Shown here: positions 27,601-49,841 of the stretch, piece by piece | Position numbering within the stretch: the stretch's first letter is position 1 | How the letters are laid out: every line of letters begins with the position of its first letter | DNA from: Oceanicaulis sp. | GTDB taxonomy: Bacteria > Pseudomonadota > Alphaproteobacteria > Caulobacterales > Maricaulaceae | DNA length: 49,841 nucleotides | NCBI GenBank assembly: GCA_022565365.1 | Contig: JAIUMW010000002.1 | Span: 1 to 49,841, forward strand | Direction of reading: 5' to 3' | The notes under the pieces: model-generated | What the model saw: the letters and a program-made list of their open reading frames with translations, nothing else | Databases searched by the model: none | What the model was told of the DNA's origin: nothing | Program-made: the position numbers and the translations under genes

Positions 27601-27684
27601 AATAGCGATGACACGGGTCTGTCGACCAATGTGTTCACCCTGGATCCGCGGATCTGGGGTCTGAGCATTCGTACATCGTTCTGA
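24644..27684 (+). pseudogene. TonB-dependent receptor disrupted by an apparent -1 frameshift at 26527-26530
   Basis: N-terminal part (24644-26602 frame): signal peptide, DVITVTAQKREENIQDVPIAVSAFS, VEVLRGPQGTLYGRNATGGVVN. C-terminal part continues in another frame (26533-27684): DVELGWRALTGRAVVDWMPNLAFTDSTLVYASYSRGYKGGGTNPP...LDPRIWGLSIRTSF. Confidence 0.85.
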
Positions 27685-27695
27685 CGGAATGACGG

Positions 27696-27719
27696 GCGGG
27701 CGCCGGTCTCGGCGCCCGC
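27696..27719 (+). terminator. Hairpin downstream of the TBDR (GCGGGCGCC-GGTCTC-GGCGCCCGC), no U-tract
   Basis: Perfect 9-bp stem and 6-nt loop 12 nt after the stop; lack of a T-run makes function uncertain. Confidence 0.35.
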
Positions 27720-27858
27720 ACGCGCCCGCACCTGCGGCTGGTTCGGCGCCAGCCGGCGTGTCCGGGGACGGACAGGCGACCACAAGCCAGGCGGGGGCGG
27801 CGACACGATCACGGGCATCATCTTCGCCCACCGCGCCCTGGCCCAGGCCCAGGAAAGG

Positions 27859-31004: not shown

Positions 31005-32474
31005 TCAGGCTCCGTTCAGCTCAAGGGCCGGCCGCGCGCCGCGCTCCAGAGCGATTGCGTCACGATAGCCGCGCGACAGGGCGGCGCGAAAGACCGGGTG
31101 TTGCGCCAGCCTGGCGCTGAACACCGATTGCAGGGCCAGGAAGCGGGCCGTGTCCGCCTCCGGATCGTCCGTACATCTGAGCCCGGTGGCGGTCAGCTGG
31201 TCCGCCAGCGGATCGGTGAGGGCAGTCTTGTTGCGGGCGGCGCGCACGATCATGCGCATCCAGGCGGCGACAGCGCGCGAAAGCCGGTCAACGCGGCGCC
31301 CGGCGGCGAGATTGGCTTCCACAGTGCCGAGCAATCGCACGGGCAGTTTCTGCGAACTGTCCCAGGCGATCTGGGACAGGAGGTGGATGATGGCCGGGTT
31401 GGAAAAGCGCGCAAGCACGCTGCTGGCGTAGGCCTCGAGATCCAGCCCGTCGGGCGCGGCGAGACCCGGCAGGATTTCGCGCCGGATCAGCGCTTCGGTC
31501 TCGCCGCGCAGCCATTCATCGGCCATGGCGCCGGCCACGCTGGCGTGACCCATGGCGAGCCCCGTCCAGGCCAGCGCCGAATGGGCGCCGTTGAGAACGC
31601 GCAATTTGACGAGGGCATGGCCCTCCACATCTGACGTCAGCACCGCGCCGGCCCGCCCCAGCACATGCAGCGGCTCGGCGTCGGCGGCCTCGATGACCCA
31701 GGACGTGAACGCCTCGCGCTGCACCGCCGCCTCATCGCGCACGCCCAGCTCGGCTTCGATCCGGTCCAGAAACGCCGCATCGCTGGCCGGGGTGATGGAA
31801 TCCACCATGGAGCGCGGGAACAGCACCCGGGCCTCGATCCAGCCGGCCAGGCCAGGGTCGGTCTGGCGGGCGAGCGTGATGACGGCTTGCGCCAGCTTGC
31901 GCCCGTTATCCTCCAGATTATCGCAGCTCAAAATCACCGGCGCCCCGGCGCCCGACGCCTTGCGACGGGCCAGCGCCGCTGCCAGCCAGCCCGGCGCGCT
32001 GCGCGGCGCGGCCGGATGGGCGAGGTCGTGGATAATGTCGTGATGGCTCAGGTCGAGCGCGCCGTCCGGCGCCAGGCAATAGCCCTTTTCGGTGATGGTC
32101 AAGGTGATCAGCCGGGTTTGCGGACCGGAGAGGGCCATTATTGTCCCCTCAGGGTCCTGCTGTGACCCGAAAGCGCGCCTTATGGACCCGATCACGCGTG
32201 TTTGTGTCTCCGTCTGGAGACGCTTCAGCGTGAACAATCCGCCTTGCGCGCGCAGCGCATCAAGGGTCTCGCGGCTACGCAGGGCGATGACGTCAATGCC
32301 CCAGCGCGGGTCGGTTTCCAGAATATCATCAATGAGTTGCGCCTGGTGGGCGCGGTGAAATGCGCCCGGTCCGATATGGGCGATGCCGGTCTGGATCCGG
32401 GTGCGGTCATAGGCGGGCCGCGCGATATAAGCGGGCAAGGTTATCAGGCTCTCCGGCGTCAGGCGCGCGCTCAT
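31005..32474 (-). CDS. uxuB: Mannitol dehydrogenase-family hexuronate reductase (fructuronate/tagaturonate reductase)
   Basis: IAHIGPGAFHRAHQAQLIDDILETDPRWGIDVIALRS...VILSCDNLEDNG...PRSMVDSITPA...LRVLNGAHSALAWTGLAMGH. Confidence 0.87.
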   Translation of the reverse strand: MSARLTPESLITLPAYIARPAYDRTRIQTGIAHIGPGAFHRAHQAQLIDDILETDPRWGIDVIALRSRETLDALRAQGGLFTLKRLQTETQTRVIGSIRRAFGSQQDPEGTIMALSGPQTRLITLTITEKGYCLAPDGALDLSHHDIIHDLAHPAAPRSAPGWLAAALARRKASGAGAPVILSCDNLEDNGRKLAQAVITLARQTDPGLAGWIEARVLFPRSMVDSITPASDAAFLDRIEAELGVRDEAAVQREAFTSWVIEAADAEPLHVLGRAGAVLTSDVEGHALVKLRVLNGAHSALAWTGLAMGHASVAGAMADEWLRGETEALIRREILPGLAAPDGLDLEAYASSVLARFSNPAIIHLLSQIAWDSSQKLPVRLLGTVEANLAAGRRVDRLSRAVAAWMRMIVRAARNKTALTDPLADQLTATGLRCTDDPEADTARFLALQSVFSARLAQHPVFRAALSRGYRDAIALERGARPALELNGA

Positions 32475-33925
32475 AGCGTCACCCCCCGCTTCCAGATGGC
32501 GATCTCGCGTTCATCATTGATTTCATTGCGGGTTCGTGCGCCCGACGCGGTCGCCAGCAACAGCTCGAACAGGCGGACAGAGGCGGCCTCCAAGGGCTCG
32601 CCCTCTATAATTGTCCCCGCATCAAAATCGATCCAGTGCGCCTTCCGGTGCGCCAGATCGCTGTTCGATGCGAGTTTCAAAGTGGGGGCAGGAAAGCCCA
32701 GCGGCGTGCCGCGTCCTGTTGTAAAAACAATGATATGCGCCCCCGCCGCCGCCAGCGCCGTGGAGGATACCGCGTCATTTCCGGGCGCTTCCAGCAGAGT
32801 GAGGCCCGGCGTGTCCGCCGCCTGCCCATACCCGATGACAGATGTCAGCGCCGCTTGGCCGGCTTTCTGCACCGCGCCGAGGGACTTTTCCTCCAGCGTG
32901 GTGATGCCGCCGGCGATGTTTCCCGGCGACGGGTTTTCGTGAACCGGTTGATGATGATCAGTAAAATAGCGCTTGAAGCGGGTGATGAGGTCGGCGCCGG
33001 CGTTGAAGATATCCTCGCTCACAGCGCGGTTCAAAAGCAGGTGCTCGGCGCCGAACATTTCGGGGATTTCGGTGATCAGGCTGGTCCCGCCCGCCGCCGT
33101 GACAAGGTCCGTCATCCGCCCGGCCAGAGGGTTGGCTGTGAGCCCCGAAAACCCGTCCGATCCGCCGCATTTCACCCCTATTTTCAAAGCGCTGACAGGG
33201 CAGGGGGTGCGCCTGTCCCGAGCCGCTATCCCCGCCAGTTCGGCCGTCAGCGCCAGCCCGGCCTCCAGCTCGTCGCCATCGGCCTGCGCCCGAAGCGTGC
33301 GCACCCTAGCCGGATCGAGACCCGGCGCGGCCTCCAGCAGCGCGTCTATCTGATTGGATTCACAGCCCAATCCGACGATCAAAACACCGCCCGCATTGGG
33401 ATGGCTCGCCAGTGCAGCCAGGATCGCACGGGTGCCCTCCAGATCATCCCCCCGCTGCGAACATCCGAACGGATGGGTGATAGCGTGCACCCCGTCCACA
33501 TCGCCGGCATGGCGCCGCGTAGCTTCCGCCGCGATGCGCTGGGCAGTGCGGGCGACGCATCCCACTGTTGCTATGATCCAGATTTCATTGCGGATTCCGA
33601 CCCGCCCATCGGTGCGGTGATAACCGGCGAAGGTACGCTGCGCCGCCGGTGAAGCCTGTGCGGCGGGGGCTGTATCCGGCGCATAGATGAGCGCGCTGTC
33701 AGGCGTCAGCGCCGTCGCCAGATTATGCGAATGCACATGATCGCCCGGCGCGATTTCACACATCGCCCGGCCGATCGGCCAGCCGTATCGGATGACGTAA
33801 CCGCCTGTTTTGACAGGCTCCAGCGCGATCTTGTGGCCGCGCGGAACCGCGCCTTTGAGCGTCAGGATCTGACCGGCTGCTGCCACAGTTTCACCGGCGC
33901 TGACATCACGCAGCGCAATCGCCAC
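32471..33925 (-). CDS. uxaA: Altronate dehydratase (UxaA family); true start may lie further upstream
   Basis: GHKIALEPVKTGGYVIRYGWPIGRAMCEIAPGDHVHSHNLATAL; FAGYHRTDGRVGIRNEIWIIATVGCVARTAQRIA; HPFGCSQRGDD; LKIGVKCGGSDGFSGLTANPLAGRMTDLV. Confidence 0.93.
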   Translation of the reverse strand: MAIALRDVSAGETVAAAGQILTLKGAVPRGHKIALEPVKTGGYVIRYGWPIGRAMCEIAPGDHVHSHNLATALTPDSALIYAPDTAPAAQASPAAQRTFAGYHRTDGRVGIRNEIWIIATVGCVARTAQRIAAEATRRHAGDVDGVHAITHPFGCSQRGDDLEGTRAILAALASHPNAGGVLIVGLGCESNQIDALLEAAPGLDPARVRTLRAQADGDELEAGLALTAELAGIAARDRRTPCPVSALKIGVKCGGSDGFSGLTANPLAGRMTDLVTAAGGTSLITEIPEMFGAEHLLLNRAVSEDIFNAGADLITRFKRYFTDHHQPVHENPSPGNIAGGITTLEEKSLGAVQKAGQAALTSVIGYGQAADTPGLTLLEAPGNDAVSSTALAAAGAHIIVFTTGRGTPLGFPAPTLKLASNSDLAHRKAHWIDFDAGTIIEGEPLEAASVRLFELLLATASGARTRNEINDEREIAIWKRGVTL

Positions 33926-34015
33926 ATTGTCGCGTGGCGATACTTGGAACAGGCTGAGCCCTTCCGGGTTTTGCGTCTCGCCTAACAGCGCCGCCTCCTC
34001 TTGTCTCGCATGCAG

Positions 34016-34029
34016 GAAACCGGTGTCAT
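34016..34029. promoter_or_regulatory. Candidate LacI-family operator A (GAAACCGGTGTCAT)
   Basis: Contains ACCGGTGTCAT; lies between the divergent uxaA operon and lacI-type gene. Confidence 0.65.
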
Positions 34030-34162
34030 CCTGTGCAAGGTTCTAGATCAGCACAGCCGCCAACGCCATATCACGCCGCCACAAGCGGCTTGCCGCAAGG
34101 CTGGCGCTCCGTGCTATGGCTGTCACAAAGGTGCTGCGCGCCGATTTGTTCAGGGTTTTCAG

Positions 34163-35242
34163 ATGACGAGCAGACGCCCGATCTACCGTGACGATGCTGG
34201 CGACGCCGGTCGCGCCGGCGCCCTTCGCAAGCGCGCGACGATCAATGATATCGCCCGGCTGGCCGGCGTCTCAAAAAAGACGATCAGCCGGGTGATCAAC
34301 GATTCTCCGTTCGTCAAAGTCGAAACCCGCGACAAGATCCGCGCCATCATGAAGGAGCTGGGCTACCGCCCGGACCCGCAGGCGCGCGGGCTGGCGTTCC
34401 GCCGCTCCTTCCTGATCGGCATGATCTACGACAATCCGAACCCGCAATATGTGGTCAATGTCCAGCAGGGCATTCTGGAAGCCGTCCGGGATTCCGGTTT
34501 TGAGCTGGTGGTGCACCCGTGCAACCGGTCCGATCCCGGCTTCCTTGAAAAGGTCCGGTCCTTCGTCGAGCAGCTAAAACTGTTCGGCGTGGTGCTGACG
34601 CCGTCAGTCTCCGAGGACGATGATCTTGTGGCGATTTTGCGTGAGCTGGACTGCCCTTATGTGCGTGTCGCGTCGGTTTCGCTGGACGAGGCCGAGCGCA
34701 TGATCGTCACCCACGACTCTGAGGGCGCCGCCGAGGCGGCCCGTCATCTGGCGGCTCTGGGCCATTCCCGCGTCGCGTTCATCAGCGGCCCGCCCAGCTT
34801 CCGCTCCTCATATGAGCGCCGGCGCGGCCTGGCTGAAGGTCTGGCTGAAAATGGCATCGCGCTGCAGGACCGCTATGTGGTCGAAGGCGCCTATACCTTT
34901 GATTCCGGTGTCGATTGCGCGCGCAAGCTGTTGGCCATGGACGAACCGCCTACCGCCATTTTTACAGGCAATGACGAGATGGCGGCTGGCGTCTACACCG
35001 CGGCCCGAGACGCAGGCGTGGCCATCCCCGATGCGCTGTCAGTCGTCGGCTTTGACGACAGCCCGATCGCTGCGCGCCTGTGGCCGCCGCTGACTTCTGT
35101 GAAGCTGCCGATCAAGGACATGGGCCGGTTCGCCGCTGAAAAGCTGATCGATCTGGCGAGGCCGGAGGGCGAGCGGCGCAGCCGGAACCCGCTGGTGCGG
35201 CCCGGCCTTGCGGTTCGCGAGTCCACCAACACGCCAGGCTGA
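34163..35242 (+). CDS. LacI family transcriptional regulator, predicted uronate regulator
   Basis: RATINDIARLAGVSKKTISRVINDSPFVKVETRDKIRAIMKELGYRPDPQARGLAFRRSFLIGMIYDNPNPQYVVNVQQGI...SVVGFDDSPIAARLWPPLTSVKLPIKDMGRFAAEKLI; ORF opens at 34001. Confidence 0.95.
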   Translation: MTSRRPIYRDDAGDAGRAGALRKRATINDIARLAGVSKKTISRVINDSPFVKVETRDKIRAIMKELGYRPDPQARGLAFRRSFLIGMIYDNPNPQYVVNVQQGILEAVRDSGFELVVHPCNRSDPGFLEKVRSFVEQLKLFGVVLTPSVSEDDDLVAILRELDCPYVRVASVSLDEAERMIVTHDSEGAAEAARHLAALGHSRVAFISGPPSFRSSYERRRGLAEGLAENGIALQDRYVVEGAYTFDSGVDCARKLLAMDEPPTAIFTGNDEMAAGVYTAARDAGVAIPDALSVVGFDDSPIAARLWPPLTSVKLPIKDMGRFAAEKLIDLARPEGERRSRNPLVRPGLAVRESTNTPG

Positions 35243-35282
35243 GGCGGGCGGCGCCACGCGGCGTGCGGCCTTGAAATCACGC

Positions 35283-35297
35283 ATGACACCGGTTACC
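35283..35297. promoter_or_regulatory. Candidate LacI-family operator B (ATGACACCGGTTACC)
   Basis: Reverse complement contains ACCGGTGTCAT; 53 nt upstream of the uxaC start; same 15-mer as site E. Confidence 0.7.
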
Positions 35298-35349
35298 AAA
35301 GATGCATCCGGCGCCGGTGCGAAACACAAGATGACCGGGGAGGAACGCC

Positions 35350-36810
35350 ATGGCCCATCAGCCGCTGACGCTGAATCCAGACCGGTTATTGCCCGCTGAT
35401 CCGGCGACCCGCGCCATTGCGCGCGATCTGTACAAGTCCGTGCGCGATCTGCCGATCATCAGCCCCCATGGCCATACAGACCCGTCATGGTTTTCGCTGA
35501 ACGCGCCTTTTGGCGACCCGACCGAGCTGTTGCTGGCGCCGGATCATTATCTCTACCGCATGCTCTACAGTCAGGGCGTGACGCTGGAGGCGCTGGGGGT
35601 CTCTTCACGCGCTGGCGGGCCTGACACCGATCCCCGCGAGGCGTGGCGGACATTCGCCGGCCATTTCCACCTGTTTCGCGGCACGCCGTCGGCGATGTGG
35701 CTCAACCATGTCTTTGTGGACGTGTTCGGCCTTGATGTGCGGCTCAGCGCCCAGACGGCGGACCATTATTACGATGTGATCGACAATGCGCTGAAGACCC
35801 CGGCCTTCCGGCCGCGCGCCCTGTTTGACCGGTTTGGGATCGAGCTTCTGGCTACGACCGAATCCCCGGTCGATGCGCTTGACCATCATCATGCCATCGC
35901 CGCCTCCGGCTGGGGCGGGCGCGTCATCACCACCTACCGGCCTGACGCCGTCATCGCCGCGGAGTTTGACGGCTTTGCCGACGCTCTGGAGGCGTTCGGC
36001 GAGATCACCAATGAGGACGTGTTCAGCTGGCGTGGCTATCTGGAAGCCCACCGTGTGCGCCGGGGTGAGTTTCAGGCCGCCGGTGCGACCGCAACCGATC
36101 ATGGCCACCCCACGGCGGCCACAGCCGATCTGTCCAAAGCCGGCGCTGAAGCGTTGTTCGCCAAGGTGGTGCGCGGTGAAGCGGACGCAGCCGAGGCCGA
36201 GCTGTTCCGCGCCCAGATGCTGACTGAAATGGCGCGGATGAGCCTTGATGATGGTCTGGTCATGCAGATCCATCCCGGATCATTTCGCAATCACAATGCA
36301 GGCCTTCACGCCAGTCATGGGCGCGACAGGGGGGCGGACATCCCCACCCGCACCGACTATGTGCGCGCGCTGAAGCCGCTGCTGGACCGGTTCGGCAATG
36401 ACCCCCGGCTCGCCATCATCGTGTTTACGCTGGATGAAAGCGCCTATGCACGCGAGCTGGCGCCGCTCGCGGGGCATTACCCGGTGCTCAGGCTCGGCCC
36501 TGCCTGGTGGTTTCATGACAGCCCGGAAGGCATGCGCCGTTTCCGTGAGCAGACCACCGAGACGGCGGGCTTCTACAACACGGTCGGTTTCAACGACGAT
36601 ACCCGCGCCTTCCTGTCGATCCCGGCGCGCCATGACGTGTCGCGCCGTGTCGATTGCAGCTTCCTGGCGCGGCTCGTCGCCGAGCATCGGCTTGACCTTG
36701 ATGAGGCGGCCGAGCTGGCGCAGGACCTCGCCTATAACCTCGCCAAATCCGCCTACCGGCTGGACGAGCCGGACTATGGCGACACCCGCAATTCCCTGAA
36801 ATCAGCCTAA
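35350..36810 (+). CDS. uxaC: Glucuronate/galacturonate isomerase
   Basis: [44 protein letters not shown]...[47 protein letters not shown]. Confidence 0.96.
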
Positions 36811-36826
36811 AACGGAGGCATCAATC

Positions 36827-37675
36827 ATGTTCAACAAGACCCTTCAGGCGACCCATCCCGACATGATGGACGGCGCCAGCAATGATGATCTGCGCAATCG
36901 CTATCTGGCTGACGGGCTGTTCGAGGCAGGCCAGGTCCGGCTCGTCTACTCTCACAACGAACGCTTCGTCATCGGCGGCGCCTGGCCAGCCGGCAAGCCG
37001 GTTTCCCTGCCCGTCCAGACCGAACCGGAATCAGCCAAGGGCCATCCCTTCCTGGAACGGCGCGAAATGGCAGCAGTCAATGTCGGTGACGGGGCTGGCG
37101 CGATCATTGTGGATGGCCAGCGCCATGAGCTGGCCGAGCGTGACGCGCTCTACATCCCCATGGGGGTGAAAGAGGTCGTGTTTGAAAGCGCGTCGGCGGA
37201 CAAGCCGGCCCAGTTCTATATTGTCAGCTGTCCGGCTCACGCGGCTTACGAGGTGAAGAAAATCTCCATCGCGGATGCGACGCCTCTCGAGCGCGGCACG
37301 ATGGAGGAGAGCAATCAGCGCACCATTTATCAGTTCGTGGTGCCGGGCATTTGCCAGTCCGCCCAGCTGCTCATGGGCATGACGATCCTCAAACCCGGCA
37401 GCGTCTGGAACACCATGCCGCCACATCTGCATGACCGGCGCTCGGAGATCTACTTCTACTTCGGTCTGGGCGAGAAGGGCCGCGTCTTCCACTTCATGGG
37501 TGAGGCCGACAATGCCCGCCACATCGTGGTGTCCGACAAGGAGGCGGTGATCTCGCCGCCCTGGTCGATCCACATGGGTTCGGGCGTGTCCAACTACATC
37601 TTCATCTGGGCGATGGCCGGGGAGAATCTCGACTACACCGACATGAATGTCCTCGATATCTGCCAGCTCAAGTGA
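36827..37675 (+). CDS. kduI: 5-dehydro-4-deoxy-D-glucuronate isomerase
   Basis: [54 protein letters not shown]...[20 protein letters not shown]...[34 protein letters not shown]. Confidence 0.97.
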
Positions 37676-37679
37676 GGCG

Positions 37680-38441
37680 ATGATGGCCGCGTCTTTCAGT
37701 CTTGAGGGCAAGACCGCCCTCGTTACCGGGGCCAATACGGGCCTGGGCCAGGCCATCGCCGTCGCGCTCGCGCAGGCGGGCGCCAATATCGCCGCCGTTG
37801 GGCGTTCCAGTGCGCAGGCAACCGGCGAACAGGTCGAGGCGGCCGGGCGGTGCTTTGCGGAAATTACCGCCGATCTGGGCGACGTGTCCTGCGTGAAGGG
37901 CGTCGTCGATCAGGCGGTCGCCAGGCTCGGCGGCGTCGACATTCTCGTCAACAACGCCGGAATCATCCGCCGCAATGACGCGCTGGAGTTCACCGAGGAC
38001 GACTGGGACTCGGTGATGAATGTGAACCTGAAATCGGTGTTTTTCCTGTCCCAGGCGGCAGCCCGCCACATGGCCGCCGAAGGCAAGCCCGGCAAGATCA
38101 TCAATATCGCGTCCATGCTGTCCTTCCAGGGCGGGATTCGCGTGGCTTCCTACACCGCCAGCAAGAGCGGCGTTGCGGGGCTGACCAAGCTTCTGGCCAA
38201 TGAATGGGCCGCCCGGGGGATCAATGTGAACGCGATCGCTCCGGGCTATTTTGCGACCAATAACACCGAAGCCCTGCGCGCCGATGAAAAGCGCAATACA
38301 GAGATTCTCGCGCGCATTCCGGCCGGGCGTTGGGGCGATCCGGGTGATCTGGGCGGCGCGGCTGTCTTTCTGTCATCTTCCGCCGCCGACTATGTCCACG
38401 GGACAGTCCTAGCAGTGGACGGTGGCTGGTTAGCGCGTTGA
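37680..38441 (+). CDS. kduD: 2-dehydro-3-deoxy-D-gluconate 5-dehydrogenase (SDR family)
   Basis: FSLEGKTALVTGANTGLGQAIAVALAQAGANIAAVGR...DILVNNAGIIRRNDALEFTEDDWDSVMNVNLKSVFFLSQAAARHM...YTASKSGVAGLTKLLANEWAARGINVNAIAPGYFATNNTEALRAD. Confidence 0.95.
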   Translation: MMAASFSLEGKTALVTGANTGLGQAIAVALAQAGANIAAVGRSSAQATGEQVEAAGRCFAEITADLGDVSCVKGVVDQAVARLGGVDILVNNAGIIRRNDALEFTEDDWDSVMNVNLKSVFFLSQAAARHMAAEGKPGKIINIASMLSFQGGIRVASYTASKSGVAGLTKLLANEWAARGINVNAIAPGYFATNNTEALRADEKRNTEILARIPAGRWGDPGDLGGAAVFLSSSAADYVHGTVLAVDGGWLAR

Positions 38442-38485
38442 ATTGTATATCTAAAAACAGCAAATAAAGATTTTGAATCTATGTA

Positions 38486-38503
38486 TTGATACCGGTGTCA
38501 TCA
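38486..38503. promoter_or_regulatory. Candidate LacI-family operator C (TTGATACCGGTGTCATCA)
   Basis: Contains ACCGGTGTCAT at 38491-38501, upstream of the 38669 TBDR; overlaps a plausible TTGATA -35 element. Confidence 0.7.
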
Positions 38504-38581
38504 TCGTGCCATAGTTGATTGGACCCCGAGGCGTGACATCCAGGCCGGGAAGCAGCGCGGCGAGTTCTGCCGCCACGAAAA

Positions 38582-38599
38582 TTGCTACCGGTGTCATGG
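38582..38599. promoter_or_regulatory. Candidate LacI-family operator D (TTGCTACCGGTGTCATGG)
   Basis: Contains ACCGGTGTCAT at 38587-38597, exactly 96 bp from the same position in site C. Confidence 0.7.
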
Positions 38600-38668
38600 A
38601 CGGTTCGGCGGGAGTCGAAACAAAGTTCGAGGCAAGCCGAAAACGGCTGCCGCAGGGGAGGAAGAACG

Positions 38669-41404
38669 ATGTCTACAACCAACGGAATGGCGCGTGCGCG
38701 TTTCTGGCTCGCCAGCGTGTCCGCGATCGGCCTGTCCGCGGCAATGGCGTCCGCGCCGGCTTTGGCCCAGGACGAGGCCCCCGCAGCGAGCGGTCCCACC
38801 GATACCGTCACAGTCACCGGCTATCGCTCGTCGCTGCAGGCTGCGGCCGCGGTCAAGCGCGAGGAGACCGGCGTTGTCGACGCCATCGTGGCTGACGATA
38901 TCGCCGCATTTCCGGACCTTAACCTGGCCGAGGCGATCCAGCGCCTGCCCGGCGTGGCGATCGACCGTGACGCCGGCGAGGGGCGCCAGATCACGGTGCG
39001 CGGCCTGAGCCCTGACTTTTCGCGCGTGCGCATCAACGGCATGGAAGCGCTGAGCGTCACCGGCGGCACGGACTCGTCCGGCGGCGGCAACCGCTCGCGC
39101 TCGTTCGACTTCAACACGTTCGCGTCCGAGCTCTTCCAGTCCGTGGTGATCCGCAAAACCCAGTCCGCCTCGGTGGCCGAAGGCTCGCTGGGCGCTACGG
39201 TTGATCTGCGCACCGCGCGCCCGTTCGACTATAGCGGCTTCATCTTCGCCGCCGGCGCGCAGGCCGGATGGAATGACCTGTCCGAAGAGTTCAATCCACG
39301 TGTCACCGGCCTGATCTCCGATCAGAACCAGGCTGGCACGGTTGGCTGGCTGATCTCGCTGGCCTATTCAGACCGCGCCCAGCTTGAAGAGGGCCACTCC
39401 ACGGTTCGCTGGCAGAATGCGAACAGCTTCGGCGGCTGCACCGCCTGCGCCACCCCGGCGGATGTCACCGCCGTGAACAACGCCTTCCATCCGCGGATTC
39501 CGCGTTATGGCCGCCTGGTGCATGAGCAGGAGCGGCTGGGCATTACCGGCTCGCTGCAATTCCGCCCGAGCGCCGTGACCGAGATCACGTTTGATGTGCT
39601 GTACTCGCGCTTTGACGCGACCCGGAACGAGCAATTCCTGGAGAACTTCTCGTTCTCCCGGGGCGGCAGCGGCGTGCCTCAACTGGTCGGCAAACCGGCC
39701 CAGATAGTCACCGCCTACGAGATCGACGCGAACAACAACCTGATCTTTGGCCGCTTCGACAATAACGACATCTATGCCGAGCACCGGTATGACGAGCTGA
39801 CCACCGAGTTCAGGCAGTTCACGGCGAACATCACGCATGACTTCACGGACCGTTTCCGTGTGGACGCCCTCATCGGCATGGCGGAATCAAGCTTCTCCAA
39901 CCCGGTGCAGTCGACGATCCTGTTCACCAATTTCGATTCGCCCGGCTTCTCGTACGACTATCGCGGGAACAGCCGTACGCCGCTGATCGAATGGGGTTTT
40001 GATGTCAATGACCCCACCAACTACCTGCTGACCGAGACGCGTGACCGGCCGAACTATGTCGATAACTCGTACAACACGGCCCAGTTCAACGCCGAGTTCG
40101 ACTTCAGCGACACGATTACGCTGCGTGCTGGCCTGAACTGGAAGAGCTATGAGTTCGACAGCTGGGAAGCGCGCCGCGACCTGCTGCTGCCGGCGGCTGA
40201 CTGGATTCCGGTGACGGCGGCCATGGCTACACAGGTGAACGGTTTCGGCTCGGGCCTTGGCATGCCGTCGGGCAATGTCACCAGCTGGGCTATCCCGGAT
40301 GTCGCCGCGGTCGCCGCGATGGTGGGCCTGTATGGGCGCCCGCTGACACCGCAAAACGGCAATATCCGCAATGTGCAGGAAGACAATCTGGGCGGTTACG
40401 CCCAAATGGCGTTCAATTCCGAGCTTGGCGGCATGCCGGTGCGCGGTGATCTGGGCGTGCGGGTCGTGCGCACGGAAACCAGCTCCACCGGCATTATCTC
40501 GGGCGTTCAGGTGACGGTGGACAACGAGTACACCGACACCCTGCCCAGCTTGAACCTCGCGATCGAGCCGACCAGCAATATGGTGCTGCGCTTCGGCGCC
40601 GCCCAGGTGATCTCGCGGCCTTCGCTGGGTGCTTTGACGCCGGGCGGCAATGTCTCGGGCACCGCCTATACGGTCAGTTATGGCAATCCCTTCCTCGACC
40701 CCTTCCGCGCCAATAATTTCGATGTAAGCGCGGAATGGTATTTCGAGGATGACTCGCTGTTCGCGATCGCCCTGTTCTACAAGGATATCGGCTCGTTTGT
40801 GGCGCGCGCCACCGAGACCATTCCCTACAGTGCGACCGGCCTGCCCAACACGGCTGTTGCAGCTGGCACGCCGCTGGCAGGGGACCTGGCGGCCGGCCTT
40901 GACCCGCTGGTGGATGTCAGCCGGAACGTGAACGGTCAGGGCGGCGACCTCACCGGGTTTGAAGTGCAGTGGGTGCGCCCGTTCAACTTCCTGCCCGCCC
41001 CGTTTGACCGGTTCGGTGCGGTGATGAACTACACCTGGGTCGACTCCGAGGTGAATTACGGCGCCGCCGGGACCAACCAGCTGACCGGCCTGTCACGCAA
41101 CTCGTATAACGCCACGCTCTACTATGAAGACGAGCGTCTGAGCGCGCGGGTCTCGGTCAATGCGCGTGATGCGTATCTGACCAATTTCCCGGGCCGCAAC
41201 GGCAATGACGAAGAGGGCAAGGAAAGCACGTTCAACGTCGACGCCGCCGTCCGGTATCAGCTCACCGACCGGGTGACGCTGACCTTCGACGGAATCAATC
41301 TCACCGACGAGTTCAACAGCCAGTACGCCGACAGCTCCAACCGGGTGTCGGTCTATCACCACACGGGCCGCGAATACCTGTTCGGTGTCCGCTACCGCTA
41401 CTGA
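38669..41404 (+). CDS. TonB-dependent receptor, predicted oligouronide uptake
   Basis: Signal peptide; DTVTVTGYRSSLQAAAAVKREETGVVDAIVADDIAAFPDLNLAEAIQRLPGVAIDRDAGEGRQITVRGLSPDFSRVRINGMEAL...; C-terminal YHHTGREYLFGVRYRY. Confidence 0.95.
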   Translation: MSTTNGMARARFWLASVSAIGLSAAMASAPALAQDEAPAASGPTDTVTVTGYRSSLQAAAAVKREETGVVDAIVADDIAAFPDLNLAEAIQRLPGVAIDRDAGEGRQITVRGLSPDFSRVRINGMEALSVTGGTDSSGGGNRSRSFDFNTFASELFQSVVIRKTQSASVAEGSLGATVDLRTARPFDYSGFIFAAGAQAGWNDLSEEFNPRVTGLISDQNQAGTVGWLISLAYSDRAQLEEGHSTVRWQNANSFGGCTACATPADVTAVNNAFHPRIPRYGRLVHEQERLGITGSLQFRPSAVTEITFDVLYSRFDATRNEQFLENFSFSRGGSGVPQLVGKPAQIVTAYEIDANNNLIFGRFDNNDIYAEHRYDELTTEFRQFTANITHDFTDRFRVDALIGMAESSFSNPVQSTILFTNFDSPGFSYDYRGNSRTPLIEWGFDVNDPTNYLLTETRDRPNYVDNSYNTAQFNAEFDFSDTITLRAGLNWKSYEFDSWEARRDLLLPAADWIPVTAAMATQVNGFGSGLGMPSGNVTSWAIPDVAAVAAMVGLYGRPLTPQNGNIRNVQEDNLGGYAQMAFNSELGGMPVRGDLGVRVVRTETSSTGIISGVQVTVDNEYTDTLPSLNLAIEPTSNMVLRFGAAQVISRPSLGALTPGGNVSGTAYTVSYGNPFLDPFRANNFDVSAEWYFEDDSLFAIALFYKDIGSFVARATETIPYSATGLPNTAVAAGTPLAGDLAAGLDPLVDVSRNVNGQGGDLTGFEVQWVRPFNFLPAPFDRFGAVMNYTWVDSEVNYGAAGTNQLTGLSRNSYNATLYYEDERLSARVSVNARDAYLTNFPGRNGNDEEGKESTFNVDAAVRYQLTDRVTLTFDGINLTDEFNSQYADSSNRVSVYHHTGREYLFGVRYRY

Positions 41405-41433
41405 TGTCTCCTTGTAGCTGAGGTCCCCCTTGG

Positions 41434-41468
41434 CCCCGGATCAGCGTGCTGGTCCGGGGTTTTCTTTA
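41434..41468 (+). terminator. Rho-independent terminator of the TBDR
   Basis: CCCCGGA(41434-41440)...TCCGGGG(41453-41459) followed by TTTTCTTT. Confidence 0.85.
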
Positions 41469-41487
41469 TCTGGAGCCAGAGCCGGTC

Positions 41488-41856
41488 ATGAAATCGCTCG
41501 GACTTGTTGCGCATGACGCCTGCAAACCGGTCCTGCTCAGCTGGGTTGGTGATCAGCTGAGCTGGCTGGGGGACAAGGATTTGTACGCCACGGGCACCAC
41601 CGGCGCACAGCTGAACGCGGCTTATCCCGCGCTACAGGTGACGGCGCTCAAGAGCGGTCCGCTGGGCGGGGATCAGCAGCTTGGCGCGATGATCGCCGAA
41701 GGGCGTCTGGACGCGCTGATATTCTTCACCGATCCGATGAGCCCGCAGCCCCACGATGTGGATGTGAAAGCGCTGACGCGTCTGGCCGTGCTCTACGACA
41801 TCCCGCTGGCGCTGAACCGGGCGAGCGCCATGGCGCTGTTGAGCGCGCGCGCCTGA
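41488..41856 (+). CDS. mgsA: Methylglyoxal synthase
   Basis: MKSLGLVAHDACKPVLLSWVG...LYATGTTGAQL...VTALKSGPLGGDQQLGAMIAEGRLDALIFFTDPMSPQPHDVDVKALTRLAVLYDIPLALNRASA. Confidence 0.93.
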   Translation: MKSLGLVAHDACKPVLLSWVGDQLSWLGDKDLYATGTTGAQLNAAYPALQVTALKSGPLGGDQQLGAMIAEGRLDALIFFTDPMSPQPHDVDVKALTRLAVLYDIPLALNRASAMALLSARA

Positions 41857-41904
41857 TGGCCGGAGTCGGCATGGCGGTGCGCCAGCGCGCTGGCGGACGC
41901 GGTG

Positions 41905-43188
41905 CTAGCCGCGCATCAACGCCACCAGCCCCATGGTCAGGAAGGGCAGATAGGTGATGGCCATCAGCGCAGCGACGAGCGCGCCGTAGAAGGGCCAGAT
42001 CGTCTTCACGGTCTCTTCCATGCGCATGCCGCCGACGGCTGCGCCCACGAACAGCACCGAGCCCACGGGCGGCGTCACCAGCCCGATCCCCAGATTGAGC
42101 ATCATGATCACCCCGAAATGCACCGGATCAATGCCCAGGCTGACCGCGATGGGCAGGAAGATCGGCGTGGTGATCACGATCAGGGGCGACATGTCCATGA
42201 ACGTGCCCAGCGCCAGCAGGATCAGATTGATGATCAGCAGGATCAAAATGGGATTGTCCGTCACGGACAGGATCAGCTCGGCCAGCTGGGCCGGCGTCTC
42301 CAGGATCGCCAGCACCCATCCGAAGCCCGATGCGGCGCCGATGATGAACAGCACCATGGCGGTGGTTTTCGCCGCCGCCAGCGTCGCGTCCAGGAAGGCT
42401 CTGAAGTTCAGGGAGCGATAGACCAGCACCGCGACGATGAGTGTGTAGATCACCGCGATGGAGGAGGATTCGGTCGCGGTGAAGAACCCGCCGAGAATGC
42501 CGCCGACAATGATCACGGCGGTCATCAGGCCGGGCAGGGCCGCCACAAAGGCCGCCAGAAACGCCGGCCAGCCGGGAAACTCGCCGCGCGGATAATTGCG
42601 CTTCACCGCCACCAGCCAGGCGACGAACATCAGAAGCGCGCCGGTCAGCAGGCCGGGGATAATGCCGCCGATGAACAGCTCGCCCACGCTGACCCCGACC
42701 CCGGCGGCCGCAGCGTAGATGATCATGTTGTGCGAGGGTGGAATGAGAAGGCCCACCACCGCGGAGGTGGAGGTGACGTTCACCGCGTAGTCGGTGTCAT
42801 ACCCCTTCGCCTTCATCATGGGCATCAGCGTCGAGCCCAGCGCGGACACGCTGGCCACCGCCGAGCCTGACACCGCGCCGAACAGCATGGAAGCGCCGCC
42901 ATCCACCTGGCCAAGACCGCCGCGCGAGCGCCCGAAAGCGGCTTCGGCGATGCGCACAAGCCGTTCGGCGATGCCGGCGCGGTGCATCAATTCGCCGGCG
43001 AATATGAAGAAGGGTATCGCCATCAGCGAAAACACGCTCATCCCTGACGCCATGCGCTGGATGGCGACGATGACGGGGATATCAAGCAGCGCAAAGGCGA
43101 CCAGGGTGGCGCCGAGCAGGGCGAACGCCACCGGGACGCCGATGGCCAGCAGCACGACCAGCGTGCCCAGCAGAACGGCGAGTTCCAT
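41905..43188 (-). CDS. dctM: TRAP transporter large permease (DctM)
   Basis: VPVAFALLGATLVAFALLDIPVIVAIQRMASGMSVFSLMAIPFFIFAGELMHRAGIAERLVRIAEAAFGRSRGGLGQVDGGASMLFGAVSGSAVASVSALGSTLMPMM. Confidence 0.95.
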   Translation of the reverse strand: MELAVLLGTLVVLLAIGVPVAFALLGATLVAFALLDIPVIVAIQRMASGMSVFSLMAIPFFIFAGELMHRAGIAERLVRIAEAAFGRSRGGLGQVDGGASMLFGAVSGSAVASVSALGSTLMPMMKAKGYDTDYAVNVTSTSAVVGLLIPPSHNMIIYAAAAGVGVSVGELFIGGIIPGLLTGALLMFVAWLVAVKRNYPRGEFPGWPAFLAAFVAALPGLMTAVIIVGGILGGFFTATESSSIAVIYTLIVAVLVYRSLNFRAFLDATLAAAKTTAMVLFIIGAASGFGWVLAILETPAQLAELILSVTDNPILILLIINLILLALGTFMDMSPLIVITTPIFLPIAVSLGIDPVHFGVIMMLNLGIGLVTPPVGSVLFVGAAVGGMRMEETVKTIWPFYGALVAALMAITYLPFLTMGLVALMRG

Positions 43189-43691
43189 CAGACGCGTCCT
43201 TCCATGCGGCCGCGTTCACGCCCGGCGGCGAGTTCGGCGAGGCGCTCAACGGCGAACAGGGTGATCAGTCCGCCGCTGACCGGCAGCGGCAGATAGGCGA
43301 AGCCGCGCGGGATGCCGAGCGTCGGGTTCACATGGCTCCACACCGCCATCACCAGCTCTGTTCCCCACACCGCCAGCGCCACGCCGCACGCGGCGATGAT
43401 GAGCAGGGCCAGCGCCCGGCAGGCGGTGCGGATGCGCAGGGGCAGCGCCTCGACGAACACGCCGATGCGGATGTGGAAACCCTCATGCACCCCGGCAGCG
43501 GCGCCAAACATGACAAACCAGACCATCAGCACCAGAGCGGCCTGTTCGGTCCAGGCGGGACTGGCGTTGAGGACATAGCGGCCAAACACCTGCCAGCCGA
43601 TGATCGCGGTCATCACCACGATCCCGGCGCCGCCGATGAACATCAGCACGCGCGCCAGCCAGCGCGTCGCCATCGCGAAACGGTCAAGCAT
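43188..43691 (-). CDS. dctQ: TRAP transporter small permease (DctQ)
   Basis: Four hydrophobic segments; GGAGIVVMTAIIGWQVFGRYVLNASPAWTEQAALVLMVWFVMFGAAAGVHEGFHIRI; between dctP and dctM. Confidence 0.88.
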   Translation of the reverse strand: MLDRFAMATRWLARVLMFIGGAGIVVMTAIIGWQVFGRYVLNASPAWTEQAALVLMVWFVMFGAAAGVHEGFHIRIGVFVEALPLRIRTACRALALLIIAACGVALAVWGTELVMAVWSHVNPTLGIPRGFAYLPLPVSGGLITLFAVERLAELAAGRERGRMEGRV

Positions 43692-44691
43692 GGTCTTCAC
43701 TCCCGGCCATGTTGCGGATGTCTTCCAGCAGGCGCTGCTGGGCCGGGCTGCGCACAAACCGCTCCCACACCGGGCGCATCAGATCGGCGAAGGCGCCCAC
43801 ATCGTCCACTTCATTGACCTCGACGCCCGACGCGATGATGCGCTCGCGCGCCGCTGACACACGCGCATCCCACAGATCGCGCATGTAGGGGACGGACTCG
43901 CGCGCGCACGCCTGCACCAGCGCCTGGTCGGCCTCGCTCAGCTTGCGCCAGCTGCGCACGCTCATCACCAGCACTTCAGGCGCCATCACATGGCCAGTGA
44001 GGCTGTAAAAAGGGGCGGTCTCGAAATGGCGGGTGGATTCATAAGACGGCCAGTTGTTTTCCGCCCCGTCGATCACGCCCTGCATCAGGCCCTGATAGAC
44101 CTCGGACAGGTCCATGGGCGTGGCGTTGGCGCCCAGGCCCTCGACCATGGAGACATAGAGGTCGGAGTTCTGGACGCGGATCTTCAATCCGCGCAGATCG
44201 TCAGGGGTGCGGATCGGGCGGCGGATGTTGTAGAAATTGCGCGCCCCGGAATCGTAGAAGCACAGCCCGATCAGCCCGTGCGGCTCCAGCGCGTCCAGCA
44301 CGGCCTGTCCCGGCGCGCCATCCAGGGCCGCGCGCATATGTGGTTCGGATTCGAACACGAATGGCAGCGACAGGATAACGGTTTCCGGCGCAAAGGCGTT
44401 GAGCGGCGCCAGATTTACCCGGTTGAGGTCCAGCCCGCCAAAAACAGTGAGCTCCAGCGTGTCGCGTTCGGAGCCGAGCTGGCCGCCCGAATAGATGCGG
44501 ATCGACAAACGCCCGCCGGAGCGCTCTTCAAGCAGCCCGCTCATCATCCGCACGGCTTCGACCGTGGGGTAATCGCTGGAGTGGGTGTCCGAGGAGAAGA
44601 AGGGCCGCGCGATCTCCCCGCAGCCCGACGCCGCCAGCACCCCGCCGGTCACTAGCCCGCCTGTCACCGCCCGGCGTGTCAGCCTTGCCAT
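43684..44691 (-). CDS. dctP: TRAP transporter substrate-binding protein (DctP)
   Basis: ERSGGRLSIRIYSGGQLGSERDTLELTVFGGLDLNRVNLAPLNAFAPETVILSLPFVFESEPHMRAALDG...PDDLRGLKIRVQNSDLYVSMVEGLGANATPMDLSEVYQGLMQGVIDGAENNWPSY. Confidence 0.93.
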   Translation of the reverse strand: MARLTRRAVTGGLVTGGVLAASGCGEIARPFFSSDTHSSDYPTVEAVRMMSGLLEERSGGRLSIRIYSGGQLGSERDTLELTVFGGLDLNRVNLAPLNAFAPETVILSLPFVFESEPHMRAALDGAPGQAVLDALEPHGLIGLCFYDSGARNFYNIRRPIRTPDDLRGLKIRVQNSDLYVSMVEGLGANATPMDLSEVYQGLMQGVIDGAENNWPSYESTRHFETAPFYSLTGHVMAPEVLVMSVRSWRKLSEADQALVQACARESVPYMRDLWDARVSAARERIIASGVEVNEVDDVGAFADLMRPVWERFVRSPAQQRLLEDIRNMAGSEDHA

Positions 44692-44701
44692 GACCTGTCC
44701 C

Positions 44702-46342
44702 CTATCCGGCGAGGCTGTTGAGCCAGCGTTCGATCAGCGTATAGCCGCTTTCATCCGCCTCATTGGCGCGGCTGGGGCCCTCCGGGTCAATGCCTTGCGC
44801 AATCAGCCAGTCATCAGGAATGCCGTCCCCATTGGAGTCTGTGCGCGGCTCGCCTTGCGTGACCTCGACCCAGCCGCCGACATCGTCCGCGCTGTCAGGG
44901 ATGAAGCCGGTGCGGCCACGCACCTCGTCAATGACGCGTGCATCGATAGCATCGCGATAAAAGGAGGCGCCGGCGCGTTGCAGAACGCGCCCATAGGCTT
45001 CCTGCGCGGGCACAGTGGTGACCTCGCCTGACGGAAAGGCGCGGTCGACAAAGGTGCGGTCAGGCGCCGCCGAGCGCACCAGGTTGAGCTGGGGCAGAAG
45101 CTGGCCGTCGACCGTATTGCCTTCGAAATAGGCGCGCCCTGTCACATTGCGCATATAGAAAATGACCGGACCCAGCGTCTGGGGTCCCTGGACGTAGGCG
45201 TTGTTGACGAAGTTGTAGCGCGCCACCGAAGCCGGATCGAGATCGGTTCCGGCGGCGTAGTGATAGTCAAACCCCTCGCGCCCATAGAGCATGTCGCTCA
45301 CCAGGCCTTGCGCGGCGGTATAGTCGAAGCTGTCGCGCGCCGGGGTCCAGTTCCAGAAATCGGTCTCGGCGCCGTGCCCCCAATTGTAGAAGACATTATT
45401 GCGGAAATCGAAGAGCACGCCTTCGGGATCCATATAGGGCGTGGCGTAATTGCCCACGCGCGGCATGCGCGAATGGTTGTGGGCCCACAGATTATTCAGC
45501 CAGGAATAGCGCGCGCCATGGCTGCCCCGGATCAGACTGCCATAGGCCCGGTCGCCCTTCTCGTGGCCGGCGTCATACAGGCCTTCAGAGATGATCGACC
45601 ATTGCACCGTGACATTGGACAAATGATTGCCGCCGCGTTCGGGATCAAAGCTCTGTGACGCGGAGAGGTTTTCGTCGATGGCCCAGCTGGTCGAGACATG
45701 GTCGACGATAATGTGATGGCCGCCGCGGATGGAGATGGCGTCATCCTCATGACCGGACTCGCTGCCCATGCGTGAGCGGATATGGCGCACGATCACGTGG
45801 TTGGCGTTGATGGTGAGGTCATAGTCGCGCAGCGTGATCCCGCCGCCCGGCGCGCTCTGGCCGGCGATCGTGATGAAGTCATTGCGGATGATCAGCGGGC
45901 TTTCCAGCTGGATGATGCCGTCCACCTCGAACACGACGATGCGCGGACCCTCGGCCTCGACGGCCTCGCGCAGCGAGCCGGGACCGGAATCGTTCAGATT
46001 GGTCACCTTGAACACCTGTCCGCCGCGTCCGCCCAGCGCGTAGCGCCCGAATCCTTCCGCGCCGGGAAAGGCGGGGATGTCGCCAGGTTCAACGAACCAC
46101 GGCGCCGGTTCCTCGCTGAGCGGCGGAATGTCGGGGGCGGCCGGAACACGGGCGGGCCGGGCCGCGGCGGCGGCGAGCGCCGCCGCGGCTTGCTCTTCGC
46201 GGGTGCGGGTGGAGGCGTCTGCGGGCGGCGGGACCGCGTCCTGCGCGGCCGTCGCGGATGCAGTGGCGCCATTGTCAGGGGCGTCTTGCGAGCAGGACGC
46301 AATCAGAGAGCCGGCCAGAAGGGCCGCTAATACCGTGCGCAT
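44702..46342 (-). CDS. Pectate lyase-like right-handed beta-helix lipoprotein
   Basis: MRTVLAALLAGSLIASCSQD (lipobox); AFPGAEGFGRYALGGRGGQVFKVTNLNDSGPGSLREAVEAEGPRIVVFEVDGIIQLESPLIIRNDFITIAGQSAPGGGITLRDYDLTI...HIIVDHVSTSWAIDENLS. Confidence 0.9.
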   Translation of the reverse strand: MRTVLAALLAGSLIASCSQDAPDNGATASATAAQDAVPPPADASTRTREEQAAAALAAAAARPARVPAAPDIPPLSEEPAPWFVEPGDIPAFPGAEGFGRYALGGRGGQVFKVTNLNDSGPGSLREAVEAEGPRIVVFEVDGIIQLESPLIIRNDFITIAGQSAPGGGITLRDYDLTINANHVIVRHIRSRMGSESGHEDDAISIRGGHHIIVDHVSTSWAIDENLSASQSFDPERGGNHLSNVTVQWSIISEGLYDAGHEKGDRAYGSLIRGSHGARYSWLNNLWAHNHSRMPRVGNYATPYMDPEGVLFDFRNNVFYNWGHGAETDFWNWTPARDSFDYTAAQGLVSDMLYGREGFDYHYAAGTDLDPASVARYNFVNNAYVQGPQTLGPVIFYMRNVTGRAYFEGNTVDGQLLPQLNLVRSAAPDRTFVDRAFPSGEVTTVPAQEAYGRVLQRAGASFYRDAIDARVIDEVRGRTGFIPDSADDVGGWVEVTQGEPRTDSNGDGIPDDWLIAQGIDPEGPSRANEADESGYTLIERWLNSLAG

Positions 46343-46470
46343 GACGTTTCCTCCCGGACCCGGCCCATGATTGGACCTGAGCCATTCTTTTTATGACAAA
46401 TCCGTCCGTGCGAAGCGCGATTGCAAAAACAGACTTGCTATCCGGCCCGGTGTTCGTAACTATGATCGTA

Positions 46471-46485
46471 ATGACACCGGTTACC
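46471..46485. promoter_or_regulatory. Candidate LacI-family operator E (ATGACACCGGTTACC)
   Basis: Identical 15-mer to site B; in the divergent region between the pectate lyase/TRAP operon and the 46618 hydratase. Confidence 0.7.
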
Positions 46486-46617
46486 TAGGGTCAGGTTAGC
46501 GGGTTAATCACAGCGGCGGAAGCCCCAAAAAGCAAAATATCACCCCCGCTGGATCGGGCGCCCGTGCGCTGCGCGGCCCGGCCGTTCCAGCCTTCGGGTG
46601 ACATCAAAGGACGCGAC

Positions 46618-47445
46618 GTGGCAGAAGGTTCAACCAATACCCGGGTGATCTCGGACGCTTTCACAACGGCGCGCGCGCAAGGCGCAGCTGTGAAGGATTT
46701 CCCCGGTGCGCTGCCAGCCAGTCTGGACGAGGCCTATGACGTTCAAGACCGCGCCATCTCGCTCTGGCCGGACACCGTCGCGGGCTGGAAGATCGGACTG
46801 ATCCAGCCTGGATATCGGGCGCAGGCGCGCGCCGAGCGCCTTGCCGGGCCGATCTTCTCGCGGCAGATATTCACCCATGTCTCCGGCGCGGTCATTGATA
46901 TGCCGGTCTTTCGTGGCGGGTTCGCCGCCGTCGAGGCGGAGTTCGTGCTGCGCCTGAAATCCGGCCTGCCGGACCATGTGCCTGTCACAGCCGAGGCTGC
47001 GGCGGATATTGTGGAGAGCCTGCATGTCGGGGTGGAGATCGCCTCAAGCCCGTTTGCGGGGATCAATGAGCTGGGGCCCATGTCGGTGGTCAGCGATTTT
47101 GGCAACAATAACGGCCTGATTGTAGGCCCGGCCATCGAGGGCTGGCGTGATATCAGGCCGGATGACCTGCCGGCCCGGGTTGAGATTGATGGCCAGATCG
47201 CGGGTGAGGCCAGCGCGGCGGCGATCCCTGGCGGGCCCATCGCCGCCCTGTGTTTCCTGATCGAGCTGTGCCGCAAACGCGCGATCGAGCTGAAGGCGGG
47301 CGACCTCATCTCCACCGGCGCAGCCACCGGCGTCCACGAGGCGGTGATCGGCAGCCTGTCCAAGGCCGATTTTGGCGCCTATGGCGCAATCAGTCTGCGT
47401 CTCGTGGCCTCCACGCCAACTCAGGTCCAGCTGGCGAGCGCGTGA
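46618..47445 (+). CDS. 2-keto-4-pentenoate hydratase / FAH-superfamily protein (GTG start)
   Basis: AYDVQDRAISLWPDTVAGWKIGLIQPGYRAQARAERLAGPIFSRQIF...FAAVEAEFVLRLKSGLP...VEIASSPFAGINELGPMSVVSDFGNNNGLIVGPAIEGW...CFLIELCRKRAIELKAGDLISTGAATGVHE. Confidence 0.85.
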   Translation: MAEGSTNTRVISDAFTTARAQGAAVKDFPGALPASLDEAYDVQDRAISLWPDTVAGWKIGLIQPGYRAQARAERLAGPIFSRQIFTHVSGAVIDMPVFRGGFAAVEAEFVLRLKSGLPDHVPVTAEAAADIVESLHVGVEIASSPFAGINELGPMSVVSDFGNNNGLIVGPAIEGWRDIRPDDLPARVEIDGQIAGEASAAAIPGGPIAALCFLIELCRKRAIELKAGDLISTGAATGVHEAVIGSLSKADFGAYGAISLRLVASTPTQVQLASA

Positions 47446-47452
47446 TGGCGCC

Positions 47453-47556
47453 AGAGCGCAATCGGCAAAAGTGGGAACCGGTTTTCGGATAAATTGTGCT
47501 CCAGATCAAAAAGCTAGAGCGTGCGGCCCGACGCAGTAGGCCGGACAACGCTCTAG
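47453..47556. repeat. Intergenic alphaproteobacterial-type repeat with terminal inverted arms
   Basis: GCGCAATCGGCAAAAGTGGGAACCGGTTTTCGGATAAATTGTGCTCC...CTAGAGCGT(47514-47522)...ACGCTCTAG(47548-47556). Confidence 0.6.
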
Positions 47557-48188
47557 CGCTTCATGGCGGCCGCTGCCGCGGCGTTGCGCGCAATCGCTGA
47601 CCAATCACCCGCCGCGATGTCGGCGCTTGTGGCGATCCAGGAGCCGCCCACACACACCACATTGGACAGCGCCAGATAGTCCGGCGCTTTGTCCCGGCCG
47701 ATGGAGCCGGTCGGGCAGAATCGGATATCGGGCAGAGGGCCCTCCAGCGCTCTGAGATAGGCGATGCCGCCGGCCGGTTCGGCGGGAAAGAATTTCAGAA
47801 CCTCAAAGCCTTGTTCAACGGCCGCCATAGCCTCGCTGGCTGTCGCCACGCCGGGCAGGCAGGGCAGGCCGGACTCCAGCATCGCCTCGCCCAGCTGGCG
47901 CGTCAGGCCGGGGCTCACCAGGAAGGCGGCTCCGGCTTGGGCAGATGCGCGCGCCTGCTGCGGGGTGCGGATCGTGCCCATGCCGACAATCAGGTCCGGC
48001 GCGGCGTCCTGCATGGCTTTCATCGCATCAAGGGCGATATCGGTGCGCAAGGTCAGCTCGATGACGCGCAGTCCGCCATCGGCCAGCGCGCGCGCCAGCG
48101 CGGCCGCATCGTCCATGCGCTTGACGGCGAGCACCGGGATCACGCTGGCGGCGTCGATGATGTCCTGCAAGGCCGGCTGGCTGGTCAT
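47553..48188 (-). CDS. eda: KDPG aldolase (2-dehydro-3-deoxy-6-phosphogluconate aldolase)
   Basis: [44 protein letters not shown]...[27 protein letters not shown]...[56 protein letters not shown]. Confidence 0.97.
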
Positions 48189-49819: not shown

Positions 49820-49841
49820 TTGAATTTAGGGGGTGACGCTG

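Follow-up and report, generated by a model that had tools for sequence, protein, structure and literature searches.

A predicted LacI-family regulon for pectin and hexuronate use with a conserved ACCGGT-centred operator in Oceanicaulis and its relatives

A stretch of Oceanicaulis sp. DNA of 49,841 nucleotides (the window), which is the whole of contig C2 of genome G000 (3.38 Mb, 419 contigs), carries genes for pectin and hexuronate catabolism together with a gene for a LacI-family protein. A sequence-only reading of the window reported five copies of one 11-mer, ACCGGTGTCAT, in the promoter regions of these genes, and proposed that they mark a uronate/pectin regulon of that protein. Do these repeats have the properties of operators, is the neighbouring regulator the protein that reads them, and how far does its control extend?

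The candidate regulator (34163..35242, plus strand) is a protein of 359 aa with an N-terminal LacI helix-turn-helix, ATINDIARLAGVSKKTISRVIN (Pfam LacI PF00356, 9e-20), followed by a periplasmic-binding-protein-like, sugar-binding effector domain (Peripla_BP_3 PF13377, 3e-38). Both scores lie above the Pfam cut-offs, which bears out its assignment to the LacI family; among the NCBIfam models of the family, none comes near its cut-off, all scores being far lower. Its nearest LacI relatives in named records come from an alphaproteobacterial MAG and from Glycocaulis. The recognition helix, V36 S37 K38 K39 T40 x S42 R43, is retained in 80 of 80 orthologues.

On the minus strand beside this gene lie uxaA, encoding altronate dehydratase (32471..33976; Pfam GD_AH_C, 1e-95; start uncertain), a uxaB-type uronate reductase of the mannitol dehydrogenase family (31005..32474; best matched by the fructuronate reductase model, below its cut-off) and a PfkB sugar kinase, by profile searches a probable 2-keto-3-deoxygluconate (KDG) kinase (29991..31001). 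The plus strand continues with uronate isomerase uxaC (35350..36810; Pfam UxaC, 3e-74), kduI (36827..37675; Pfam KduI, 9e-33), a kduD-type SDR (37647..38441; Pfam adh_short, 5e-58) and a TonB-dependent receptor (38669..41404; TIGR01782, 6e-204, above cut-off). Further on are a DctP-DctQ-DctM TRAP transporter (41905..44691, minus; Pfam), a PelZ-like pectate lyase (44702..46342, minus; NCBIfam PelZ at 1.7e-51, well below the curated cut-off, and no Pfam match), a protein resembling FAH-fold hydratases/hydrolases (46564..47445, plus; Pfam FAA_hydrolase, borderline at 4e-5), and eda with edd (47553..49819, minus), edd being cut by the window end. At the uxaA N-terminus (33925-34000, minus) there is no ATG, GTG or TTG at the expected start; an in-frame CTG near 33988 follows AGGAGGCGGCG (AGGAGG), and uxaA of G001, a genome of the same genus, has an ATG one codon further than this CTG position; a CTG start or an assembly error is possible. 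A methylglyoxal synthase gene follows the receptor gene (41446-41856, plus) and occupies the same place in the relative G027 and in locus L058, with no match in G001. Finally, a 440-aa open frame at 26509-27831 (minus) lies opposite a plus-strand fragment of a TonB-receptor barrel, has no family match and is probably a shadow ORF.

A full scan of the 49.8-kb window located exact copies of ACCGGTGTCAT at 34019-34029(+), 35283-35293(-), 38491-38501(+), 38587-38597(+) and 46471-46481(-), and no sixth, in agreement with the sequence-only reading. Between 0.017 and 0.053 copies are expected under Markov models of the window of orders 1-3, giving a probability of at least five copies of ~1e-11 to 3e-9. 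All five copies are intergenic or in 5' leaders, and the genes that follow them serve the utilization of hexuronates or pectin. Extended to 16 bp, the site in the uxaA/lacI gap (operator A, AGGAAACCGGTGTCAT, 34014..34029, plus) reads ATGACACCGGTTTCCT toward uxaA and is also upstream of lacI, where it predicts autoregulation. Operator B (ATGACACCGGTTACCA, 35283..35298, plus) is upstream of uxaC-kduI-kduD; operators C (TTGATACCGGTGTCAT, 38486..38501, plus) and D (TTGCTACCGGTGTCAT, 38582..38597, plus) are the distal and proximal members of a pair, 96 bp apart, upstream of the receptor gene; and operator E (ATGACACCGGTTACCT, 46471..46486, plus) separates the divergent lyase-TRAP operon (minus) from the hydratase gene (plus). 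Site D falls inside a mechanically called ORF that begins with TTG at 38582; the receptor ATG, at 38669, is preceded by GGGGAGGAAGAACG. The earlier reading had all five places right, with A, B and E drawn a few bases too wide, and the 15-mer that it saw in both B and E, ATGACACCGGTTACC, is there. Every site contains an ACCGGT core, and operator C is near-palindromic. An even palindrome with a central CG is thus present, as in LacI-family operators, the commonest form here being a partial palindrome only. Of the dyad TGACACC/GGTGTCA proposed earlier, one half stands, with GTCAT invariant, whereas the other half reads GGAA, GGTA, TGAT, TGCT or TGCA according to the promoter.

The sites are conserved far beyond their surroundings. 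In a core-anchored alignment of G000 with G001 and G027, the operators are identical at 15-16 of 16 bases and the surrounding 72 bases at 29-54%. Site by site, 15/16 bases are kept at A (flanks 38-42%), 16/16 at B (33-42%), 16/16 at C (29-50%), 15/16 at D and 15-16/16 at E (32-54%). Across 80 named orthologue loci (1.5 Mb) the 10-mer ACCGGTGTCA occurs 250 times and its reversal not once, while versions with a permuted tail reach no more than 20 copies. The sites recur before lacI, uxaA, uxaC, kduI, kduD, FAH and TonB receptor genes, for most targets at a median distance of ~46-135 bp, in Maricaulis, Caulobacter, Brevundimonas, Parvularculaceae, Pseudoxanthomonas, Stenotrophomonas, Lysobacter and others, so that the putative operator is unchanged across two classes, the Alpha- and Gammaproteobacteria. 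In Lysobacter sp. Root690 (L122, near the right end) a second LacI gene, 49% identical, lies beside ATGACACCGGTAGTCAT, which has one extra base in one arm; it is possibly a paralogue with a shifted operator spacing.

Operator and protein also occur together. Among 200 genomes of the order, with a close orthologue defined by E <= 1e-90 and a site by exact TGACACCGGTTWCC, 75 have both and 112 neither, while 7 have the site only and 6 the protein only (13/200 discordant; Fisher P = 5e-39, uncorrected for kinship and inflated by it). Genomes with the orthologue hold 213 of the 221 sites. Every genome of the mixed genera g1, g8, g9, g14, g23 and g25 has both or neither, and in mixed genus g27 a single genome with a lone site departs from this agreement. 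The footprints in two relatives, the 80 loci, the co-occurrence and the invariant helix together support the proposed uronate/pectin regulon as a prediction.

The genome-wide scan extended the regulon beyond the window. Eight copies of ACCGGTGTCA were found in the genome, against four of its reversed control: the five window sites, two copies within coding sequence and a further copy that precedes zwf (C256:2101). The copy ahead of zwf-pgl on contig C256 is the only one outside the window that precedes a gene, and it lies in a sixth predicted operator, ATGACACCGGTTGCAA (C256:2096-2111), ~95 bp upstream of zwf. It had been asked whether the motif might be equally common inside coding sequence or before unrelated genes; the genome scan and the genomes without the orthologue answer that it is not. 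The scan also adds a probable sixth target, zwf-pgl-edd-eda, that had been missed. The window ends inside edd, of which ~60 N-terminal codons are missing, and C256 starts inside pgl; no sequence overlap between the two was found. In G027, zwf-pgl-edd-eda is contiguous, occupies the corresponding position in the same cluster and has the sixth site as well. Because of this synteny, C256 is likely to continue the window across a gap of ~0.4 kb, and the Entner-Doudoroff operon zwf-pgl-edd-eda is therefore probably a target too. The last bases of the window (49820-49841), upstream of edd, depart from the edd sequence of the relative and include a stop, which gives the impression of a misassembled or chimeric contig end. 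A comparison of zwf promoters took in 14 loci; apart from G000 and G027, the remaining 12, that of G001 included, showed no such site. G001 has the LacI orthologue, with zwf elsewhere in the genome and without the site, and the link is therefore limited to G000 and G027 among the genomes examined. The absence of the site from these 12 loci suggests that the Entner-Doudoroff link is recent and location-bound.

The zwf site is also where another regulator could most readily be imagined. LacI-family regulators of alphaproteobacterial central carbon metabolism include GluR (CC2053), PckR and GapR, and Caulobacter GluR is predicted to control zwf-pgl-edd-glk (PMC4052901), much as LacI-family control of zwf-pgl-edd is predicted here; moreover, ATGACACCGGTTGCAA matches neither of the common operator forms described below. 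A GluR-like factor or a second LacI protein might then read some sites, above all that of zwf, and the 34163 protein would serve only a subset. The gluR gene directly follows zwf-pgl-edd-glk, and its listed targets include no uronate genes (PMC4052901), whereas the 34163 gene lies in the uronate cluster, ~13 kb from edd, and control of zwf appears here where the operon has joined that cluster. Against a second reader, the zwf site occurs only where the operon sits in the uronate cluster. The sole other LacI protein found in the genome, by a search with the 34163 protein as query, is 30% identical, has the helix VSTASV and a different, TGTAAACGCTTACA-type palindrome upstream, and is encoded on an atypical contig. 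We consider this alternative improbable, and regard the five sites and the sixth before zwf as very probably the operators of the 34163-35242 protein, acting as a local repressor of pectin and hexuronate catabolism. The contig with the other LacI gene, C86 (L140), also carries a tripartite tricarboxylate-type transporter, and possibly derives from another organism in the bin.

Alignment of the sites by target revealed a structure that the earlier dyad had missed: there are two forms, and one is oriented. Read toward the gene, the asymmetric form at enzyme and hydratase genes is ATGACACCGGTTWCC, found at uxaC in 33/33 cases, at kduD in 9/9, at uxaA in 35/37, at kduI in 25/29 (three more have one extra T) and at FAH in 21/35 (13 more, in Xanthomonadaceae, have one extra T, TTTACC). 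The sites of TonB receptors are near palindromes and often paired. The members of a pair lie 96-103 bp apart in Maricaulis-like genomes, and elsewhere 22-34 bp or, in some cases, 44 bp; with spacings that differ by group, the pairing is conserved and DNA looping with a fixed helical phase is unsupported. The 200 genomes hold 221 asymmetric sites, 50 fully symmetric TGACACCGGTGTCA sites, these in 36 genomes, and 28 GGWAACCGGTTWCC sites; many of the last are probably unrelated, since only 4 of the 28 have a symmetric site within 200 bp, and the reversed pattern also occurs several times. By a rough count in related genomes, asymmetric sites are far commoner than random combination of halves predicts.

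The motif might instead be a shared promoter or leader element and no operator. Its half ATGACA/TTGACA is -35-like, and at kduI in Xanthomonadaceae ATGACA stands at the -35 position, followed in 75% of cases by a TATAAT-like box at a distance of 17 bp. Yet the promoter register varies, with TTG at -17 in alphaproteobacterial uxaC and the site between the boxes at Xanthomonadaceae FAH, while the operator stays nearly constant, so that promoter constraint alone is insufficient for the asymmetry; the motif is, besides, limited to a single regulon and to those genomes that encode the LacI orthologue. A promoter or leader element is thus a very remote prospect. The same differences in register between groups give no support to a role of the TWCC half as -10 box. 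That an 11-mer should have clustered by chance in a GC-rich genome, for which one might cite the few copies in genomes without the orthologue (8 in G002, 5 in G045), has practically no probability left and is already refuted by the 80-locus counts, the 200-genome co-occurrence and the footprints, those copies being nearly all in predicted coding sequence and the probability of at least five copies here being < 1e-8.

For the operators of the LacI protein, the simplest reading of the asymmetry would be that one half is strong and that the other, weaker one determines the affinity. A bolder proposal, which we advance tentatively and consider rather doubtful, is a truly oriented operator across the Alpha- and Gammaproteobacteria, in which GTCA would be the obligatory anchor and TWCC a distinct gene-proximal half at catabolic promoters, with near-symmetric sites marking the receptor. 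This conserved directional asymmetry is the sole surprising part; the regulon itself is of an ordinary sugar type.

From the computed identity, positions and conservation of the sites and their co-occurrence with the protein, we infer binding, repression and an effector as follows. Without inducer, a LacI dimer would occupy 16-20 bp around an ACCGGT centre. It would thereby block the overlapping promoters of uxaA(-uxaB-kinase), lacI, uxaC-kduI-kduD, the hydratase, zwf-pgl-edd-eda and the PelZ-like lyase/TRAP operon and, through two sites, that of the TonB receptor. Once pectin fragments are taken up, the repressor would be released by an intermediate that the uxa and kdu branches share, KDG being the most likely one. 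The two branches meet at KDG. Xanthomonadaceae orthologue loci keep kduI-kduD, the hydratase, TRAP and the operator, with no uxa gene detected nearby; since these kdu-only loci keep the orthologue and the same operator, the signal should be common to both branches, and KDG is proposed because the branches meet there. Operators that overlap promoters, an intermediate as the releasing signal and a site at the regulator's own gene are standard for the LacI family (PMC4052901). The operators described for it are for the most part even palindromes around a central CG and stand 30-140 bp ahead of genes (PMC4052901).

For glucuronate/galacturonate, six groups of LacI-family regulators have been listed (Ravcheev 2014, PMC4052901). 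The present system resembles the UxaR, KdgR, UxuR and ExuR groups of hexuronate regulators (PMC4052901) in having a LacI protein beside its targets, an even CG-centred operator, uronate genes and a site at its own gene; operators before both the hexuronate catabolic genes and the regulator gene are a feature that it shares with the UxaR/KdgR type. What sets it apart is its predicted reach, which takes in a TonB receptor (with paired sites), a PelZ-like lyase and zwf-pgl-edd-eda, and an operator that in its main form is asymmetric and oriented. The SuxR/CUT loci of Xanthomonas likewise combine a LacI-type repressor with a TonB receptor, an inner-membrane transporter and degrading enzymes, and the Xanthomonas pectin locus has a polygalacturonate-induced TonB receptor; SuxR, however, serves sucrose and not uronate, and the available part of that paper gives no such operator sequence for the pectin locus (PMC1790865). 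A literature search found no paper giving this operator or regulator group; a search on ACACCGGT with LacI returned no relevant paper, and PMC5507952, which describes an Oceanicaulis bin without a complete carbohydrate pathway, and PMC5343134 contain nothing on this regulator. The regulon is thus new, or at least undocumented in the literature found; its type is already known.

In G000 and G027, control of an operon of central metabolism seems to have passed to a sugar-specific repressor where the operon joined the cluster. If the oriented operator is true, a LacI protein would read two half-site types, and the asymmetry would set affinity promoter by promoter, or the order of induction; this would be a small departure from the palindromic picture, and one that palindrome-only motif searches would blur. 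For Maricaulis-type, Caulobacter-type and Xanthomonad bacteria, the sites yield a confident prediction of a pectin-use regulon that can be put to the test, with TGACACCGGTTWCC as the search pattern.
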